Below are positions 2,415-26,617 of a stretch of 51,314 nt of DNA, piece after piece. Origin of the DNA: Deltaproteobacteria bacterium (GTDB lineage: Bacteria; Bdellovibrionota_C; UBA2361; OMII01); NCBI GenBank assembly GCA_947488865.1, contig CANLCB010000003.1, forward strand, positions 1 through 51,314, written 5' to 3'. Below the pieces are notes generated by a model. The model did no database searches. It saw only the letters and a program-made list of their open reading frames with translations, and was not told the DNA's origin. Each line of letters opens with the position of its first letter. Position 1 is the first letter of the stretch. The translations under genes and the position numbers were made by a program.

Positions 2415-3383
2415 ATGCAATTCACGCCCGAGACACTGAAAATCTTATATCTGCTTGAATCAAACGCGGCGCTTTCTTTTCGCGCGATTGCCGATATGGC
2501 AGGCCTTGAGGAGCATAAAGTTCGCCGCACCTTCCACCGACTCGTTGAAATGAAGGTGATTACGGGGCGCGCTGTCTTCGTAGACTCGATGGCGCTTGGA
2601 TATGATGATTACGGTCTCTTCTTCTCTCTCAAATCGACGAACGCGAAAGAACAAAAAGCTTTGATTCGTTCACTCGCGGATTCTCCTTTGGTTCGATGGC
2701 TTGCGGATGTTGGGGGGAACTTTGATTACGCCGTGACGTTCCTTTCGAAATCTGGCCGAGAGGTACGGCAGGTGCTCGACCGCATTTCTCAGAAACACCA
2801 GGACGCTTTCGTGGGCAAGCAGTTATCCTTACGCACCTACATGATGCGCTACCCTAGACGGTACCTCTCTCCGAATACCAAAGGGTGCGACACATACATA
2901 ATGGGAAAGGCCACAGAAGAAACCAACATCGACCAGCTCGATCGCCATATCCTCAACGTCCTCAGTCAGGGACACTTTACCCCAGACAATGAAATCGCGG
3001 GGAAGCTTGGGGTCTCGGCCAGCACTATCGTGAGACGCGTAGCCGCGCTCAAGGAGACCGGAATTCTTTTAGGGGATACCTACCGTGTCAACGCCGGCGC
3101 CCTTGGCTACAGCTCCTATCGCCTCCTCATCACTATGAAGCGCCTAGGCACTGACATTCGTCGACGCATGATTCAGTTCTGCGACGAGGAGCTACCGGTC
3201 CGAATCATGGTGGAGAGCCTCGGAAGCTGGGATTACGAACTTGAGCTTGAAGTAGCGGACAACCGTGACATTAAACAGCTCGTTGGTCGCCTCTATGAAT
3301 CGTTTCCTCAAGATATCGTAAGCGTTAACGTTATCCCGGTCTTCCAGCATCTGAAGTATTCAGGCTTTCCAGTAGAAAAGTAG
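2415..3383 (+). CDS. Tandem Lrp/AsnC-family transcriptional regulator (two HTH-RAM modules)
   Basis: A 322-residue protein made of two consecutive Lrp/AsnC units. Residues ~5-50 form a winged helix-turn-helix and ~60-145 a RAM-like ligand-binding and oligomerisation domain. A linker of ~25 residues follows, then a second helix-turn-helix at ~175-222 (ending S-T-I-V-R-R) and a second RAM-like domain at ~232-318. Ordinary Lrp proteins are ~150-165 residues with one unit, so this is a duplicated form. Such regulators bind DNA and sense small metabolites, often amino acids; the effector here is unknown. The ATG at 2415 has no convincing Shine-Dalgarno sequence. The ~290 bases upstream (2122-2414) hold no other gene, and their last 110 are AT-rich, a plausible autoregulatory region. 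Confidence 0.8.
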   Translation: MQFTPETLKILYLLESNAALSFRAIADMAGLEEHKVRRTFHRLVEMKVITGRAVFVDSMALGYDDYGLFFSLKSTNAKEQKALIRSLADSPLVRWLADVGGNFDYAVTFLSKSGREVRQVLDRISQKHQDAFVGKQLSLRTYMMRYPRRYLSPNTKGCDTYIMGKATEETNIDQLDRHILNVLSQGHFTPDNEIAGKLGVSASTIVRRVAALKETGILLGDTYRVNAGALGYSSYRLLITMKRLGTDIRRRMIQFCDEELPVRIMVESLGSWDYELELEVADNRDIKQLVGRLYESFPQDIVSVNVIPVFQHLKYSGFPVEK

Positions 3384-4457: not shown

Positions 4458-4684
4458 TGCAAGGACCTTTCTATCAGAGAGTGAACAGGAAAAACCTTCA
4501 GACGTTTGCTCCGTCACATCACATGGATCTAGTCATGTGACGCAGCTAACTAACCCCCTCTACCCATATAACAAAGTGCTTCGAAAGAACGAGAGGCGGA
4601 TCCTTTGCCAAGGCGCGCGGATGGCTGCCTCGGAGAGTGTTAGAAACCCACACTCTCACGGAGCAGTGTACGCGGAGTTTATTC

Positions 4685-4813
4685 CTAGAACTGGCCTCCA
4701 CAGTATCTTCTGCTGCGGTTGACGATATGCGGACTGCAACTTCGTGAAGTTTTTCTCGTTTCGCCGCACACCTCGCCGACTCGAGACGAAACTACTTTTG
4801 AGGCCAGCTCTAG
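4685..4813. repeat. Dispersed repeat element, copy 1 (terminal inverted repeats, MITE-like or structured RNA)
   Basis: This 129-base element is bounded by imperfect inverted ends (CTAGAACTGGCCTC left, GAGGCCAGCTCTAG right) and matches a second copy at 17095-17269. The left 59 bases agree at 54 positions. The right ~58 bases align with one gap and several changes, sharing blocks such as TTCTCGTTTCGCCGC and GACGAAACTAC. An internal hairpin AACTT/AAGTT (4738-4751) becomes AAGTT/AACTT in copy 2, a compensatory swap. It fills part of the gene-free stretch 4458-4967, downstream of the minus-strand nitrilase gene. Nothing else was recognised in the rest of that stretch. Confidence 0.7.
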
Positions 4814-4967
4814 TCAAAAAGTCAGGTTGCAACGCTACAAATACGCGTGTAGCGAAGGCAAATTGGAGTTTTGCGACAATTAAAACATCGACTGGCAGCC
4901 TGCCATTACTTGAAGTGTGCGCATGTAAAGGAGAACCTCGAAATTCGCAAAACCGGAGCGTAAGGTT

Positions 4968-5834
4968 TTAAAAGGTCCAAGGAGCGAGGCGTCTATCACT
5001 CCAAGGTCTCGCGTCGCCTGTCGACCTGCATTGAGCCAACGCATCAAAATCAACCTCCGCTACCGCAATCGCCTCTGTATTGAGAGGACTCTCCGCCAAT
5101 ATCGCACTCGCCGGAAAAGGCTCCTTACTCGGCGCAATGATGGAGCTCTGTCCGTAGCCTGTTCCTAGCCCGAAACATTCTATTTCGCCCACGATGCAAG
5201 ACTGCGCTACGAATATTTCATTCTCAATCGCTCGAGCTTTACAACTCCAGTTTACCCTCTGATAGCCGTGCTGCGATTCTGTATAGCTCGGGACACAGAG
5301 AAGCTCTATCCCGGCCTCCGCAACGGCCCGTGCAGCCTCCGGGAACTCGGAATCATAACACACCAGCACTCCCAGGCGTGGGTTAGGGAACCGCTGCAAA
5401 CCAAACTGCTGTTGGAGTCCCCACGGCTCTATCTCCCACTGAGTTCGACAATTTTTGGGCTGAAAGTAAAGCGCGCCATCGGGGAAAGCGACGGCAGAGA
5501 CGTTAACAATCCCCACCTCTGAGCTTCGAAGATACGATCCCCCGATAATTGTGATGTGCAGCGATTGCGCCAATCGTCTTAAAGTATCATCAATAAGCGT
5601 CGCAAACGGAGCGAGTTTTGTCGCCACCGCATGTGTAGGCCCATCTGGCATAGTTTTAAGCAGCTCGACCTCGAATAGTTCTGGCAGAAGCACCACAGAA
5701 CCTCCCCGTCTCGCAGCATCTTCAACCAAAGCGCAGAGATGCTGGAAGAATTCATCCACTCCCTTAATTGGCGCTACTCCCCATGTAATTGAGGCCACCC
5801 GCGCGCAAGAATCTTTTTGGGGAGCGTCCTTCAT
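4968..5834 (-). CDS. Carbon-nitrogen hydrolase (nitrilase superfamily)
   Basis: A 288-residue protein with the nitrilase-superfamily catalytic triad in order: Glu52 in LLPELFE, Lys127 in QPKNCR, and Cys159 in VLVCYDSEFPEAAR. It is a single-domain enzyme of the family's usual length. Members cleave or condense non-peptide C-N bonds through a cysteine thioester; the substrate here is unknown. The ATG at 5834 follows GGAG six bases upstream and lies three bases after the stop of the GNAT gene (5838-6830), so the two are almost certainly co-translated. GNAT and carbon-nitrogen hydrolase domains are also known fused in one protein in many bacteria, which suggests that the two products work together. 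Confidence 0.88.
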   Translation of the reverse strand: MKDAPQKDSCARVASITWGVAPIKGVDEFFQHLCALVEDAARRGGSVVLLPELFEVELLKTMPDGPTHAVATKLAPFATLIDDTLRRLAQSLHITIIGGSYLRSSEVGIVNVSAVAFPDGALYFQPKNCRTQWEIEPWGLQQQFGLQRFPNPRLGVLVCYDSEFPEAARAVAEAGIELLCVPSYTESQHGYQRVNWSCKARAIENEIFVAQSCIVGEIECFGLGTGYGQSSIIAPSKEPFPASAILAESPLNTEAIAVAEVDFDALAQCRSTGDARPWSDRRLAPWTF

Positions 5835-5837
5835 GCG

Positions 5838-6830
5838 CTACTCCGCCCAGCAAGAGTCCGAGTTATCATCATTTCTCGCCATAAAGGAGCGAGATTCGGT
5901 AAGATTCTTCAACGCTATCGGCCGTCCTCGGTACGGCTCCAACAACCGACTCATCTCCTCTCGCGTCTCAAGTATTGGAGCAATGTGCCTGAGAGGGAGG
6001 TAGTAGGCATCCCAAATCTTCATCACGGTTTCGCCAGTTATCATGAGCGGTTTCGAGCCGCCAATTTCATGGACCGTAAGCATCGTGTAATCTACCGGCG
6101 ATAGCCCCTCCGCGGTAGCGGGTTGGACCCAGGGCACATCCAACATACGGCGCCCCTGCTTTGACCAGAACTTCAATCTGGCGTCCGGATCCGTACCTGA
6201 CTTTTTGTCTATCGTTTGTTGGGCGAGATCCATAAGGCGTGGGTCATTTATCTCACCGAAATGAGCGCTTATCCCAAATTGGTCTCGACGATGTTCAATC
6301 GTTGTGCGGTACACAAGCGGTCCGATCCCTAATCCCTTCATCCGATTATCGATACAGAGATAGTCTCCGAGACTGTAGGTCTCCCCATCAATTTTCGCCA
6401 CGTGCGTTTGATAACCGCCTATAATTCCGCGCTGGTCGGTGAAGACATCGACATCGATGGAAAATCGAGAATCCCTCACGAGACGCACGATTGTATCAAA
6501 CGGAAACCGCTCGTCAGGATCTGGGAAAGACGCGCAATAAACTGGATAGTATCTCTCGAGGAGCTCGAAAGCTTTCACTGGACTATCGGCCATCAAGACA
6601 CGCAGGCTCGTCGAATTGAAGAAAATAGCGGGCCCCTCACCTTTGATTCCACACGGACGCTCAATTCGATGGGTAGCTCGCTCACCCTCCAAAGATTGGA
6701 AAAATCGCGCATCTGGACAGGGCACAGGACGCTCCCAATCACGCCCGACACGAACTTCCTGCTGCCGGAAATCGTAAGCCGGCGTAAAAAAGGACATGGC
6801 ATGAAATGGGGTATCTGCCGCGGGAGGCAT
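5838..6830 (-). CDS. GNAT-family N-acyltransferase paired with the nitrilase
   Basis: The frame extends upstream to a TTG at 6977 (379 aa). The ATG at 6830 (residue 50 of the long form) is preferred because GGAG lies ~12 bases before it, with a GTG directly preceding it. In long-form numbering, residues ~125-285 carry a GNAT-like fold. The acetyl-CoA loop is visible at N211-RMKGLGIG, and a late FWSKQGRR...PWVQP segment resembles the YxxxGF region of acetyltransferases. The ~80-residue C-terminal tail is not recognised. The gene is directly upstream of, and probably translationally coupled to, the carbon-nitrogen hydrolase, and divergent from the deacetylase-like gene at 7559. The acceptor substrate is unknown. 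Confidence 0.75.
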   Translation of the reverse strand: MPPAADTPFHAMSFFTPAYDFRQQEVRVGRDWERPVPCPDARFFQSLEGERATHRIERPCGIKGEGPAIFFNSTSLRVLMADSPVKAFELLERYYPVYCASFPDPDERFPFDTIVRLVRDSRFSIDVDVFTDQRGIIGGYQTHVAKIDGETYSLGDYLCIDNRMKGLGIGPLVYRTTIEHRRDQFGISAHFGEINDPRLMDLAQQTIDKKSGTDPDARLKFWSKQGRRMLDVPWVQPATAEGLSPVDYTMLTVHEIGGSKPLMITGETVMKIWDAYYLPLRHIAPILETREEMSRLLEPYRGRPIALKNLTESRSFMARNDDNSDSCWAE

Positions 6831-7558
6831 CACAGAAAACTGCTCCGTAGGCGGAGAATCCTGGTGAAGCGTCTCCGCCCCCGGTTGAACTATTTTTACT
6901 GAAAATAAGGACTGATCGAGACTAGCCGTTTGACGGCCGGTTGCATGATATACCAATTCCTTTCTTCTGCTCCTCAAGGGGACCCTGCGGAAGATTCACG
7001 CGAACGCCGTCGGCGTCGCACAAATCAACGGGTCGAACCCCCACGAACGAGACCCGGCCAAGGGAACCCCCAACCCGGAAATCTCTCAGTTACACGGCCC
7101 TCGGCAAGAACCAGCTTGGCTCTCACTGTAGCTCTTTTAAGCTCGAGCGTGTCCTCAAATCGTTCCGACTCTGTGTCGGCTTGGGAGATTGAAGAGGCAA
7201 CTGACCTCGACTGACTTCTAACAACTCATCAATCGCGCAAACAAAATTTGCTTGCCTACTTTTGGAATTAAAGCAAATGGGCCCTCTAGTCAACCCTACA
7301 TGACATTTTTTAGGACCACAGGAGCGCGGCTCACGTCGAGACAGCGAGAGCAAGCACCAAGACCGCTCCTACGCGCGGAACAAGCGATTGGTATAAGAGA
7401 AACCATTCAATCAGCCGCTCCTTTGCTCTCAACCACCGAGCCAAGTATTGCCAGCTCGCCCCCATCCTAGTCAGTTGGTACACTCCATCCCTAGCGTAAG
7501 GACTGTCGCGTTTTGTACATTTCGAGCGTAAAACCAGGCTTTTTGGCGAGGGTTTTGT
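6831..7558. other. Long non-coding stretch between divergent genes
   Basis: About 580-730 bases, depending on the GNAT start, separate the divergent GNAT and deacetylase-like genes. No frame here has a convincing ribosome binding site and composition. Two short matches to the right end of the dispersed repeat (7256-7264 and 7284-7293) are too short to call another copy. The region presumably holds the promoters of both flanking genes, but no clear -35/-10 pair was found. Confidence 0.3.
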
Positions 7559-8761
7559 ATGTGCGCCCTTCGAATCATCTCCAATGCGGACCTTTGGACC
7601 ATTTCTGACAACCAGAAACGGTTTGGACATCTAGGAACTCGAGATCGCGCGAACCCATCCATCAGCTACGACCATCCCGGCAAAACGAACGCCCTTCTCA
7701 CGGCGGCTCAGAGTCTTCAGTCAGCTATCGCGGCTGGAATTTTCCACACTCACCTCGCTCCCCTTTCAATGACCATCTCGACTCGGTACGCCACTAGCGC
7801 CGAGGCCTTACGAGCGCACCCAGAGGAGTACCTCAACAGCCTGGAGACCGCCTCGTCCGACGCGTTAGAACGGGCAAAGCGAGGAGAAGATCCGATTGCC
7901 CCCTTTGGCAAAGAGGCGGACGTCAGCCCAGGCACCTACAATGCGGCGCTCCGATCTGTGGGAGCAGCCTTAGACGCGGTGGATACAGTTCTGTCTGATG
8001 CGAGCGATACGGCTTTCGCCTTAGTGTGGCCACCAGGTCACCATGCCGAACCAATCCAAGCCATGGGATTCTGCTACCTCTCAACCGCAGCCATCGCCGC
8101 ATTGTACGCTCGAGACCATTCCGTACAGATACGAGCAGGTCATAAAAATAGAGTGGTCCTTATCGACATCGATCATCACCGCGGAAATGGCTCCGCGGCC
8201 GTACTTGCCAACCAGCCAGAGGTTCTCTTTATTGACCAGGCGTATCGATCTCACTACGACCCGCGGCTACAACGTTACGTCGACGGCCCCTACGACCCGG
8301 CGACCGACACCTATGAAGGGGCTGGCAGAGAGTTTCCCTACGAACATACAGATAAGTTTCTTGGGGTAACGGCGCATCCCATGGCAAGTGCCCCCAATAT
8401 CCATAAGGTGGAGTTCGAGGGATTCCAATCAGCCGAAACTGTCATAAGGACTTTTTTTACCAGAGTGATGCCAGCCGTAAAGGAATTTAATCCCGACGTC
8501 ATCCTGTGGTCCGTCGGCCTCGACTCTGCCAAGGGAGACCCAGTGGGAGGGCTCGGATTGGAGCCTGAGTCCTTTTACACTTTCATCAAAGGGATGCGGT
8601 TGGCGTTTCCTGACATTAAGCATTGCGGCATCCTCGAAGGCGGATATCACCCTGAGCTTGGAGCGGCCTGCATCGTACCAACGCTACTTGGTTTTCACGA
8701 TGCGCCCGAGCAGATCTGCTACGACTCTTTCAGTCCCTACCAAGGGGCATTTAAGAAATAA
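7559..8761 (+). CDS. Histone deacetylase-like / acetylpolyamine amidohydrolase family protein
   Basis: A 400-residue protein starting at ATG 7559 after GAGGG (spacing six). It has the arginase/deacetylase fold signatures: PPGHHAEP with the catalytic His pair at 161-162, the zinc-site motif IDIDHHRGNG (Asp205 and His207 as likely ligands), the third ligand Asp322 in SVGLDSAKGDP, and LEGGYHPE near the end. The zinc motif reads D-H-H-R-G-N-G rather than the more usual D-x-H-H-G-N-G. Bacterial relatives remove acetyl groups from polyamines or other acetylated amines, and some act on proteins. It is divergent from a GNAT acyltransferase/nitrilase pair, so opposing acylation and deacylation of one substrate is possible but unproven. 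Confidence 0.85.
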   Translation: MCALRIISNADLWTISDNQKRFGHLGTRDRANPSISYDHPGKTNALLTAAQSLQSAIAAGIFHTHLAPLSMTISTRYATSAEALRAHPEEYLNSLETASSDALERAKRGEDPIAPFGKEADVSPGTYNAALRSVGAALDAVDTVLSDASDTAFALVWPPGHHAEPIQAMGFCYLSTAAIAALYARDHSVQIRAGHKNRVVLIDIDHHRGNGSAAVLANQPEVLFIDQAYRSHYDPRLQRYVDGPYDPATDTYEGAGREFPYEHTDKFLGVTAHPMASAPNIHKVEFEGFQSAETVIRTFFTRVMPAVKEFNPDVILWSVGLDSAKGDPVGGLGLEPESFYTFIKGMRLAFPDIKHCGILEGGYHPELGAACIVPTLLGFHDAPEQICYDSFSPYQGAFKK

Positions 8762-8772
8762 CAGCTGTTAAT

Positions 8773-9342
8773 TTACCCGCGGACGGCCCGCGCGACTTCG
8801 TCAGACAGACGATCCACCAACACACTAAGGGCCGCGACCCGGGCGTTATATCCTTTCCCCTCAATCGGCTCCTCAAGCACGGTGACGACACTCGTCGAGT
8901 CCTCGAATCTCTTGGTATCGGACACCGTATAATTGACGGTGAGATTCGCGAGCCCCCTCTGATTAACATCGAATCGAACCACATCGAGTTGGACTACTTT
9001 ACTTGGAAGCCGATCGGAATTCCCCGAAACGAATACAGCGCTAGACCCCAACCGAGCCGCAAGATCCTGAGCGAAGGTCCGCTGGAAATTCGTACCAAGA
9101 TCCTCCACCCACCGATTCGATTCGTCCACCCTCATCTCACGATCTAGACGGGTGACCATTTGCGGATTGTTGAGATAAGTCGGAAATCGAACTCGCCTCA
9201 CCTCAACAACCGGTCCAAGGGCGCTTCCCGTAAAACGAGCGGCCTCCGCTGAGGGCTGTAACGAATAGTACGTTACTGTCGGGCTCCAGCATCCTATCCA
9301 AGCGAGACACATCCCCAGCGACAAGCAAGAAATCTTCTTCAT
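8773..9342 (-). CDS. PqiC/YmbA-type auxiliary lipoprotein of an MCE transport system
   Basis: A 189-residue protein with an N-terminal hydrophobic segment ending at Cys18 (AWIGC), a plausible though imperfect lipobox. The mature part begins with the Y-Y-S-L-x-P pattern typical of the ABC-transport auxiliary lipoprotein family (PqiC, formerly DUF330). It continues with the VEVRRVRFPTYLNNPQMV segment that characterises the fold. Family members are outer-membrane lipoproteins that partner inner-membrane MCE proteins in lipid traffic. It begins three bases after the mlaD-like stop and is the last gene of the mlaE-mlaF-mlaD operon, which supports the assignment. Confidence 0.85.
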   Translation of the reverse strand: MKKISCLSLGMCLAWIGCWSPTVTYYSLQPSAEAARFTGSALGPVVEVRRVRFPTYLNNPQMVTRLDREMRVDESNRWVEDLGTNFQRTFAQDLAARLGSSAVFVSGNSDRLPSKVVQLDVVRFDVNQRGLANLTVNYTVSDTKRFEDSTSVVTVLEEPIEGKGYNARVAALSVLVDRLSDEVARAVRG

Positions 9343-18211: not shown

Positions 18212-19048
18212 ATGCAAGCAGTAACACCAGTTCAGCCTCCATCCCAAGAGCTCCTAGCAGCCCTGGAGCAATTGCAAAAAAGCAATTTTCGAAAGCAGGA
18301 CGGTGGCTCCTTCAATCCCGATGCGTTAACACCATCTGCCAAGGCAGACCCAATTGGACAAATTCTTCTTAGCTGCGGCAATGGAAGACTTGGAGTTGAG
18401 GGCTACAGGCAGCTTCAGCGCCTCTATCCCGATGGCGTCGTAGGGGCAGGCTCTCTTCCGAATTTCTCAAACCTCAATCGAACAACGGGGACCGTCGGTC
18501 TAAACGAAAAACAAATTCTTATGATCGTGTGTGGCGGCCAGACGGGCGTGGATCAGGGAGCCCTGATGGCAGCCGAACTCTTGGGATACGAACGAGGAGG
18601 AATCGTTCCCAAAGACCGGGCCACCGCGGCGGGTCGGCTCAATGAAAGACACCCGATGACAGAGAACCATTCCAACGATGTAAACGATCGAACTCAACAC
18701 AATTTTACTGGCGCGGATGGAACGCTCGGGTTGTACCAAGGCAGTGAGCGTGACGGAACGACCCTCACAATCGTGGGTGCTTATAAAGTTGGGCGACCTG
18801 TCTTTATGGCTAGCATAGACGAACCGGTTACTGAATCTCTGGCACAAACCTTCGCTGAGTGGCTTCAGACCAACAAGATTCGATGCCTGAATGTCGGAGG
18901 TCCGAGACAGCCTTTGGACGCGAAAGAGAATCCAGAGAAAGACTTTCAAGCGAAAACAGTCAGGTTTTTGAGAGATTTACTTGGAAGAACCGAGGCCCAC
19001 TTAAAAACGGCATCGCCGTCCTTAGCTGACGCCAGCTTGCCGCGATAA
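18212..19048 (+). CDS. YpsA/SLOG-like protein of the putative molybdenum-carrier family
   Basis: A 278-residue protein starting at ATG 18212 after GAGGGA. Residues ~103-260 match the putative molybdenum carrier / circularly permuted YpsA branch of the SLOG superfamily: IVCGGQTGVDQGALMAAELLG (nucleotide-binding loop, residues 106-116), GGIVPKDRATAAGRL, a run of conserved His/Asn/Arg (HPMTENHSNDVNDRTQHN), GADGTLGL, and LNVGGPRQP near the end. Related proteins are often only ~150 residues; here ~100 extra N-terminal residues of unknown function precede the fold. Molybdenum binding has been proposed for the family but is not proven; SLOG proteins generally bind nucleotide-like ligands. The gene stands alone. 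Confidence 0.8.
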   Translation: MQAVTPVQPPSQELLAALEQLQKSNFRKQDGGSFNPDALTPSAKADPIGQILLSCGNGRLGVEGYRQLQRLYPDGVVGAGSLPNFSNLNRTTGTVGLNEKQILMIVCGGQTGVDQGALMAAELLGYERGGIVPKDRATAAGRLNERHPMTENHSNDVNDRTQHNFTGADGTLGLYQGSERDGTTLTIVGAYKVGRPVFMASIDEPVTESLAQTFAEWLQTNKIRCLNVGGPRQPLDAKENPEKDFQAKTVRFLRDLLGRTEAHLKTASPSLADASLPR

Positions 19049-25423: not shown

Positions 25424-26617
25424 TCAGGCCGCTTGGTCGGCCATCTCAGGCGCTGTCCGAGGCAATCCCCTAACAGCCTCCACAGCCTGCCTCATGCGCT
25501 TGGTGTCTATCTCATGGACATCAACGCCGGCGCCAATCCGCTGGAGAAGCGTAATGGTAAGAACCCCTCCAAGATGCTCCTTAAACTCGCCAAGCGCGTT
25601 CTCAAGACGCTCCCCCTCCACAAGAAGGGAAAGATGGTCTCTCCATGTGGAGAACCCAAGCGCGTCGAAGAGAGTTGTAATACGAGATAAGTCCTCATCC
25701 GTGATCAGTCCAGCAAAATGCGAATAGGTGGCATCGAGCTCAATTCCGATCGCAACCGCTTCTCCGTGCCTGATTGCGTGCCCCGAGAGCGCCTCGATTT
25801 TGTGAGCCGCCCAATGTCCAAAATCCAATGGACGAGAAGACCCAAGCTCAAACGGATCTCCACCCCTTGAAATGTGGTCGAGATGAAGCTGCGCGCAACG
25901 ATGAATCACATACTGCATGGTCGGCATATCCCGACGGAGGAGCTCCTCGGCGTGCTTCTCCAGGTACGCGAAAAACATCGGGTCTTTAATGAGAGAGACC
26001 TTGACCGCTTCAGCGATGCCAGCGAGCCAGTCACGCTGAGGAAGAGACCGCAGAAAGTAGGAATCGTTGATGATGGCTCGAGCGGGAGCGAATGTGCCGA
26101 TGAAGTTCTTCTTACCGTACGCGTTGACACTATTTTTTACACCGATACCAGCGTCATTTTGCGCCAAGACGGTGGTTGGCACACGGATCAGCCGAACCCC
26201 TCGATGCGTCGTCGCGGCTGCGTAACCAACAGCGTCGATGAGCGCACCTCCGCCAATCACTACCGCGTAGGAATGTCGGCATATCTTCTCGTCGTGCAAG
26301 AAGTCATACAACCGTTGGAGGATCGCCGGGGTGTTTTTGGAATATTCACCTCCGGGCACTTCAATAATACCGGCACTAGAAAGCGCTCCTGGCAGTTGAG
26401 CGTCACAATACTGTCGAATGGAATTCACGAGTGCGGGATGATGCTTGGCGATCTCAGCCTCGACAACGAAGGCGATCTTGCTTCGGAACGGAATCGTTAA
26501 ATCCATCCCCTCCTGCACAACCTCACGCAAAAGAGGATTGGTGAGCTCAAAGAGCCCTTCCGTGAAGTGAACCGCATATGAATACGATACAGAGAACTCT
26601 TGGCGTAACGTCGTCAT
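25424..26617 (-). CDS. Sugar phosphate cyclase of the 3-dehydroquinate synthase superfamily, EboD-like
   Basis: A 397-residue protein. It has the NAD-binding loop VVIGGGALIDAVGYAAA and the metal-site residues of the family: Glu in GIAEAVKVS, His in DFGHWAAHKIE, and His in HGEAVAIG. The N-terminus (FSVSYSYAVHFTEGLFELTNPLLR) and the signature DAGIGVKNSVNAYGKKN differ from AroB and resemble, from memory, the EboD-type 3-dehydroquinate synthase-like proteins. These belong to the wider group that includes sedoheptulose 7-phosphate cyclases. The product could therefore be a carbasugar rather than dehydroquinate. None of the usual ebo partner genes is adjacent. A short hairpin (25419-25432) straddles the stop codon. 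Confidence 0.75.
   Translation of the reverse strand: MTTLRQEFSVSYSYAVHFTEGLFELTNPLLREVVQEGMDLTIPFRSKIAFVVEAEIAKHHPALVNSIRQYCDAQLPGALSSAGIIEVPGGEYSKNTPAILQRLYDFLHDEKICRHSYAVVIGGGALIDAVGYAAATTHRGVRLIRVPTTVLAQNDAGIGVKNSVNAYGKKNFIGTFAPARAIINDSYFLRSLPQRDWLAGIAEAVKVSLIKDPMFFAYLEKHAEELLRRDMPTMQYVIHRCAQLHLDHISRGGDPFELGSSRPLDFGHWAAHKIEALSGHAIRHGEAVAIGIELDATYSHFAGLITDEDLSRITTLFDALGFSTWRDHLSLLVEGERLENALGEFKEHLGGVLTITLLQRIGAGVDVHEIDTKRMRQAVEAVRGLPRTAPEMADQAA

Follow-up and report, generated by a model that had tools for sequence, protein, structure and literature searches.

The window analysed here is a stretch of 51,314 nucleotides from a Deltaproteobacteria bacterium (GTDB lineage Bacteria; Bdellovibrionota_C; UBA2361; OMII01), corresponding to contig C3 of genome G000 (GenBank assembly GCA_947488865.1, contig CANLCB010000003.1; 1.47 Mb, 70% complete). 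It contains a gene for a nitrilase-superfamily amidase directly downstream of a gene for a large GNAT-family acyltransferase, and, divergently oriented, a gene for an HDAC-fold amidohydrolase (Table 1). The stop codon of the GNAT gene ends at position 5838 on the reverse strand and the nitrilase ATG lies at 5834, leaving a gap of 3 bp, and a GGAG motif is found 6 nt upstream of this ATG. The coordinates, the catalytic triad and the 3-bp gap given in the original prediction, which had been made from the sequence alone, were all confirmed. The divergent gap between the GNAT and HDAC genes is 581 bp.

Table 1. Genes discussed in the text, with their positions in the window
Feature	Position	Strand	Details
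Nitrilase-superfamily amidase (CN_hydrolase)	4968-5834	-	288 aa; Glu52-Lys127-Cys159; Pfam PF00795, E=4.9e-23
Large GNAT-family acyltransferase ("W type")	5838-6977	-	379 aa; N-terminal extension of ~110 residues; TTG start uncertain
HDAC-fold amidohydrolase	7559-8761	+	400 aa; Pfam PF00850 Hist_deacetyl, E=7.6e-52
Protein with two AsnC/Lrp-type halves	2415-3383		possible regulator
cpYpsA SLOG-family protein	18212-19048		
Enzyme resembling 3-dehydroquinate synthase	25424-26617		

The nitrilase carries both a CN_hydrolase domain and a complete Glu-Lys-Cys triad and thus belongs to the nitrilase superfamily; in an alignment with 11 relatives, Glu52 and Lys127 were invariant in all 12 rows and Cys159 nearly so. 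Its closest solved structure was Nit2 (E=2e-12), which we take to be an omega-amidase. Scanning of named genomes produced 78 nitrilase loci, chosen by nitrilase patterns and not by GNAT content, among them those of three genomes of the same genus as the window (G009, G007 and G001). In a midpoint-rooted tree of 62 rows, built after removal of 24 of the 78 as near-copies or truncated sequences, the window nitrilase grouped with that of G009 (SH-aLRT 98%), then with those of G007 and G001 (99%), and then with the nitrilases of five split pairs from Armatimonadota (99%). This tree holds hardly any outside nitrilases (L141) and has several long branches, L141, L070 and L140 among them. As judged from these comparisons, the window nitrilase is a member of the GNAT-coupled (YhcX-like) nitrilase lineage, and it was 26-32% identical to six fused nitrilase domains.

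Profile searches found a GNAT either fused to or adjoining the nitrilase in 73 of the 78 loci, which supports a coupling of the two functions. Three GNAT types could be distinguished. The fusion type (F type) was fused to the nitrilase in 59 loci, as the original prediction had stated for other bacteria, and adjoined it as a separate gene in five more, all from Armatimonadota; Pfam detected both domains in one of the fused proteins (L072). GNATs of a second type (L type) adjoined the nitrilase in eight loci (Lysobacteraceae, Halomonas and Roseobacteraceae), and a W-type GNAT, as in the window, in one (G009), while the remaining five loci were without a GNAT (G007, G001, L124, L135 and the outlier L141). 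L-type pairs were also present on plasmids of Xanthomonas sacchari (L180) and Aeromonas caviae (L181), where the two genes carry the annotations GNAT and carbon-nitrogen hydrolase and overlap by 4 bp; on the Aeromonas caviae plasmid, which is conjugative, the pair is followed downstream by frmR and a gene for a formaldehyde-type dehydrogenase.

The window GNAT itself matched no Pfam or NCBIfam model and no solved structure directly, and a scan of genome contigs with this sequence alone returned no relatives. With a family profile of 8 rows (the window GNAT and seven relatives), the top PDB match was a GNAT (E=0.0011), and the other matches listed were mostly GNATs, elongation factor G being among the few exceptions. 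Pfam Acetyltransf_1 matched four of the seven relatives (L006, 1.3e-9; L010, 2.3e-8; L009, 6.2e-10; L007, 2.3e-4) and gave no match in the other three, including the orthologue in G009. On the family profile and these four relatives, and not by a direct Pfam match, the 379-residue protein is a GNAT superfamily member, as originally called. The gene is coding, its long N-terminal part included, because divergence from the G009 orthologue was 28%, 20% and 64% at the three codon positions and the first 60 residues were 51% identical. At two loci from two genomes (L049:4944-7009 and L050:6491-8810), relatives of the W-type GNAT are followed by a related protein of 312-336 amino acids, which at L049 matches GINT1_N (PF24793).

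The W-family profile recognised F-type GNATs with E-values of 0.004 or worse in hidden Markov model searches, compared with 2e-71 or better for the F-type GNATs against their own profile, and the profile-profile probability was 89.5% for W against F, 62.6% for W against L, and 96% for L against F. Since profiles of one GNAT type hardly detect the others, the window GNAT is a different partner of the nitrilase and not the cut-off half of a fusion. The original description of the pair as a split version of the fusion consequently holds for the nitrilase, a homologue of the fused one, and fails for the GNAT, which comes from a different, longer family with barely detectable relatedness: a split form would have an F-type GNAT, and the adjoining GNAT is of the W type. 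True splits with a fusion-type GNAT do occur elsewhere, in the five Armatimonadota loci. Within the genus, separate F-type GNAT genes were found apart from the nitrilase in G009, G001, G002 and G011, with a weak match in G005, so that G009 holds both a separate F-type GNAT and the window-type pair; none was found in the 70% of the window genome that is covered. No L-type GNAT was found in the genus, an empty search result that is not by itself proof of absence. In G009 (L176:3164-4399 and 4549-5412), the F-type GNAT adjoins a hydrolase resembling acyl-CoA:6-APA acyltransferase (PF03417, 1.7e-20), another arrangement of a GNAT beside an amidase-type fold.

Conservation of the pair was followed in 57 genomes, of which 12 belong to the genus (the window genome counted); single absences are uncertain where genomes are incomplete (84% for G004 and G005, 70% for G000). 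Nitrilase orthologues were present in four of the 12, namely G000, G009 (77% identity), G007 (63%) and G001 (63%), matches of 33% identity or less (G002, G004, G005, G006, G010 and G011) not being counted as orthologues. In G009, the GNAT (64%) and nitrilase genes adjoin, 45 bp apart, in the same order and on the same strand as in the window, and the flanking genes differ from those of the window except for a single match (37%) at a distance of roughly 6-11 kb. Recurrence of the pair amid an otherwise different neighbourhood argues for more than a chance gene order. The nearest GNAT subgroup was held by exactly the same four genomes as the nitrilase; more distant family members were found in G001, G007 and G008 and, outside the genus, in G024. 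In a species tree built on Lon alone (Tex was found in only three of the 12 genomes), these four genomes sit in two places, so presence changed twice, a pattern which agrees with a nitrilase-GNAT link but cannot prove it.

The HDAC-fold gene has a Hist_deacetyl domain, and five aligned orthologues were invariant at the HH pair (161-162), D205, H207, D322 and Y363, which we take to be the zinc ligands and the catalytic tyrosine; the original assignment of a divergent HDAC-type gene with intact zinc motifs was accordingly correct. Its best solved relative was HDAC6 (2.8e-51), followed by HDAC10 (1.7e-26), and the acetylpolyamine amidohydrolase 3q9b matched far more weakly (2.5e-17), so that specificity for polyamines is not indicated. 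Orthologues were found in five of the 12 genus genomes (G000, and G004, G005, G006 and G010 at 47-56% identity). In G006 (L048) and G010 (L047/L053), the orthologue lies by a uracil-catabolism-like operon, presumably of the genes named URC1/URC4, with DUF1688, GTP-cyclohydrolase-II-like (PRK07198), UPRT-like, MMSDH (methylmalonate-semialdehyde-dehydrogenase)-like and Amidohydro_2 genes; three transporter-like genes stand in between in G010. A role as part of uracil catabolism was nevertheless set aside: DUF1688 occurs in nine of the 12 genomes against five for the HDAC gene, HDAC orthologues are present in G004 and G005, where DUF1688 was not found, and what follows in G003 and G009 is instead a gene for an HPPD-like glyoxalase.

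Taken together, we assign a probability of about 0.6 to a reading in which the nitrilase and GNAT genes make up an operon of two and the encoded enzymes work on one and the same small molecule, with the GNAT as a replacement partner and the HDAC-fold gene as an independent neighbour. The best reading of the module is thus an amide/amine two-enzyme system of YhcX-like kind in which the GNAT partner may have been exchanged. The GNAT would transfer an acyl group from acyl-CoA onto an amine, and the nitrilase would cleave an amide or similar C-N bond through a thioester at Cys159, aided by Glu52 and Lys127, these being the roles of the three residues in nitrilase catalysis generally. That both enzymes would act on one molecule is suggested by fusion and co-location. 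Acylation followed by hydrolysis of a distal amide is the favoured order, given that Nit2, the solved structure closest to the nitrilase, is presumably an omega-amidase. A broader proposal, that the hydrolase stayed constant while its GNAT partner was exchanged at least twice among distant families (F type fused or adjacent, L type adjacent, W type adjacent), each doing the same acyl-transfer job, is possible but tentative; if true, the chemistry would need CoA-dependent acylation beside C-N cleavage, whichever GNAT supplies the acylation.

Several observations weigh against the two-gene operon. The nitrilases of G007 and G001 have no adjoining GNAT, so adjacency is not obligatory: in both genomes the genes ahead of the nitrilase are, as judged by reading, transhydrogenase-like and FKBP-like, and a different contig carries the closest GNAT relative (36-38%). 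Adjacency of a W-type GNAT and nitrilase rests on two genomes, and co-occurrence within the genus counts for no more than two independent events, without statistical power. The nearest NCBIfam models score the nitrilase far under their cut-offs, and AlphaFold2 models of the GNAT, alone or with one orthologue, reached pLDDT values of 31.7 and 37.7, so that its identity rests on profiles. The unlinked genes of G007 and G001, whose GNAT relatives adjoin another gene (for a GINT1_N protein), are what would be expected if an amidase and an unrelated acetyltransferase merely shared a transcript by chance; we consider this unlikely, given that gene order and strand agree between two genomes whose flanks differ, and given the GNAT fused to or beside the nitrilase in nearly all loci of the lineage. 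Slightly less probable is the breakage in two of one ancestral fused GNAT-nitrilase gene. The homology between the window nitrilase and the nitrilase domain of the fusion, and the adjacency of the same nitrilase lineage to a fusion-type GNAT in Armatimonadota, would fit such an origin. The poor recognition of fusion-type GNATs by the W-family profile does not, nor does their occurrence as stand-alone genes in other genomes of the genus, among them G009, which also holds the window-type pair.

Least probable is the pathway originally put forward, in which an acyl-amide on a single molecule, for example a polyamine, would be formed, trimmed and reversed by the GNAT, the nitrilase and the HDAC-type deacetylase between them. 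In its favour, the window has all three genes side by side, and the deacetylase has its zinc and tyrosine residues intact. The co-occurrence test in relatives, which the original prediction itself had named as one that could refute it, was nevertheless negative: the pair was present in two and the HDAC gene in five of the 12 genus genomes, and only the window genome had both (Fisher p=1.0). No pair accompanies the HDAC orthologue in G004, G005, G006 or G010, and G009, which has the pair, holds only a distant HDAC and no orthologue. Among the 78 nitrilase loci (flanks of up to 8 kb per side), an HDAC-profile match was near the nitrilase in one (L114), some kb off and on the opposite strand. The uracil-catabolism-like neighbourhood of the orthologues in G006 and G010, and the width of the divergent gap in the window, point the same way, and the HDAC-fold gene appears to be an independent neighbour and not a member of the module.

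The pair in the window is flanked by a gene for an Lrp-like regulator, a gene for a protein without a Pfam match, and the HDAC gene. The protein with two AsnC/Lrp-type halves is encoded ~1.6 kb from the nitrilase end. G009 likewise has a 37% identical relative of the cpYpsA SLOG-family protein, ~6 kb from its pair. An Rfam scan of the window gave no matches.

The finding is a modest one: it demonstrates no new activity, and the third gene falls away from the module. GNAT-nitrilase fusions are widespread, and the occurrence of separate genes with GNATs of three families points to possible selection on the pairing as such; two separate proteins are also easier to assay individually than one fusion. 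Among known systems, the conserved Nit1C cluster likewise combines a nitrilase with a GNAT gene, together with biotin-synthase-related (COG2516) and AIR-synthase-related genes (PMC1199592). Set against the available passages of that source, the window pair does not belong to Nit1C, since no COG2516-type or AIR-synthase-like genes are among its adjoining genes, those beyond position 8773 being judged by reading alone. The closest likeness is to the YhcX-like fusions, which we take to be "nitrilase class 12 / RimI-like" proteins, YhcX itself presumably being a GNAT fusion: a homologous nitrilase domain is coupled to a GNAT, whereas the window has two genes and a GNAT of another family. For these fusions, the few literature passages covered gave no substrate of a purified enzyme. 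Deletion of yhcX in B. amyloliquefaciens SQR9 lowered indole-acetic acid by 24%, to 76% of the wild-type level (PMC4558970), which may serve as a weak lead on function. The two-gene operons with F-type GNATs in Armatimonadota and with L-type GNATs in Lysobacteraceae, Halomonas, Roseobacteraceae and on the Xanthomonas and Aeromonas plasmids share with the window the GNAT-then-nitrilase order and the tight spacing, and differ from it in that their GNATs are ~200 amino acids long and belong to two other families, compared with 379 amino acids for the GNAT of the window.

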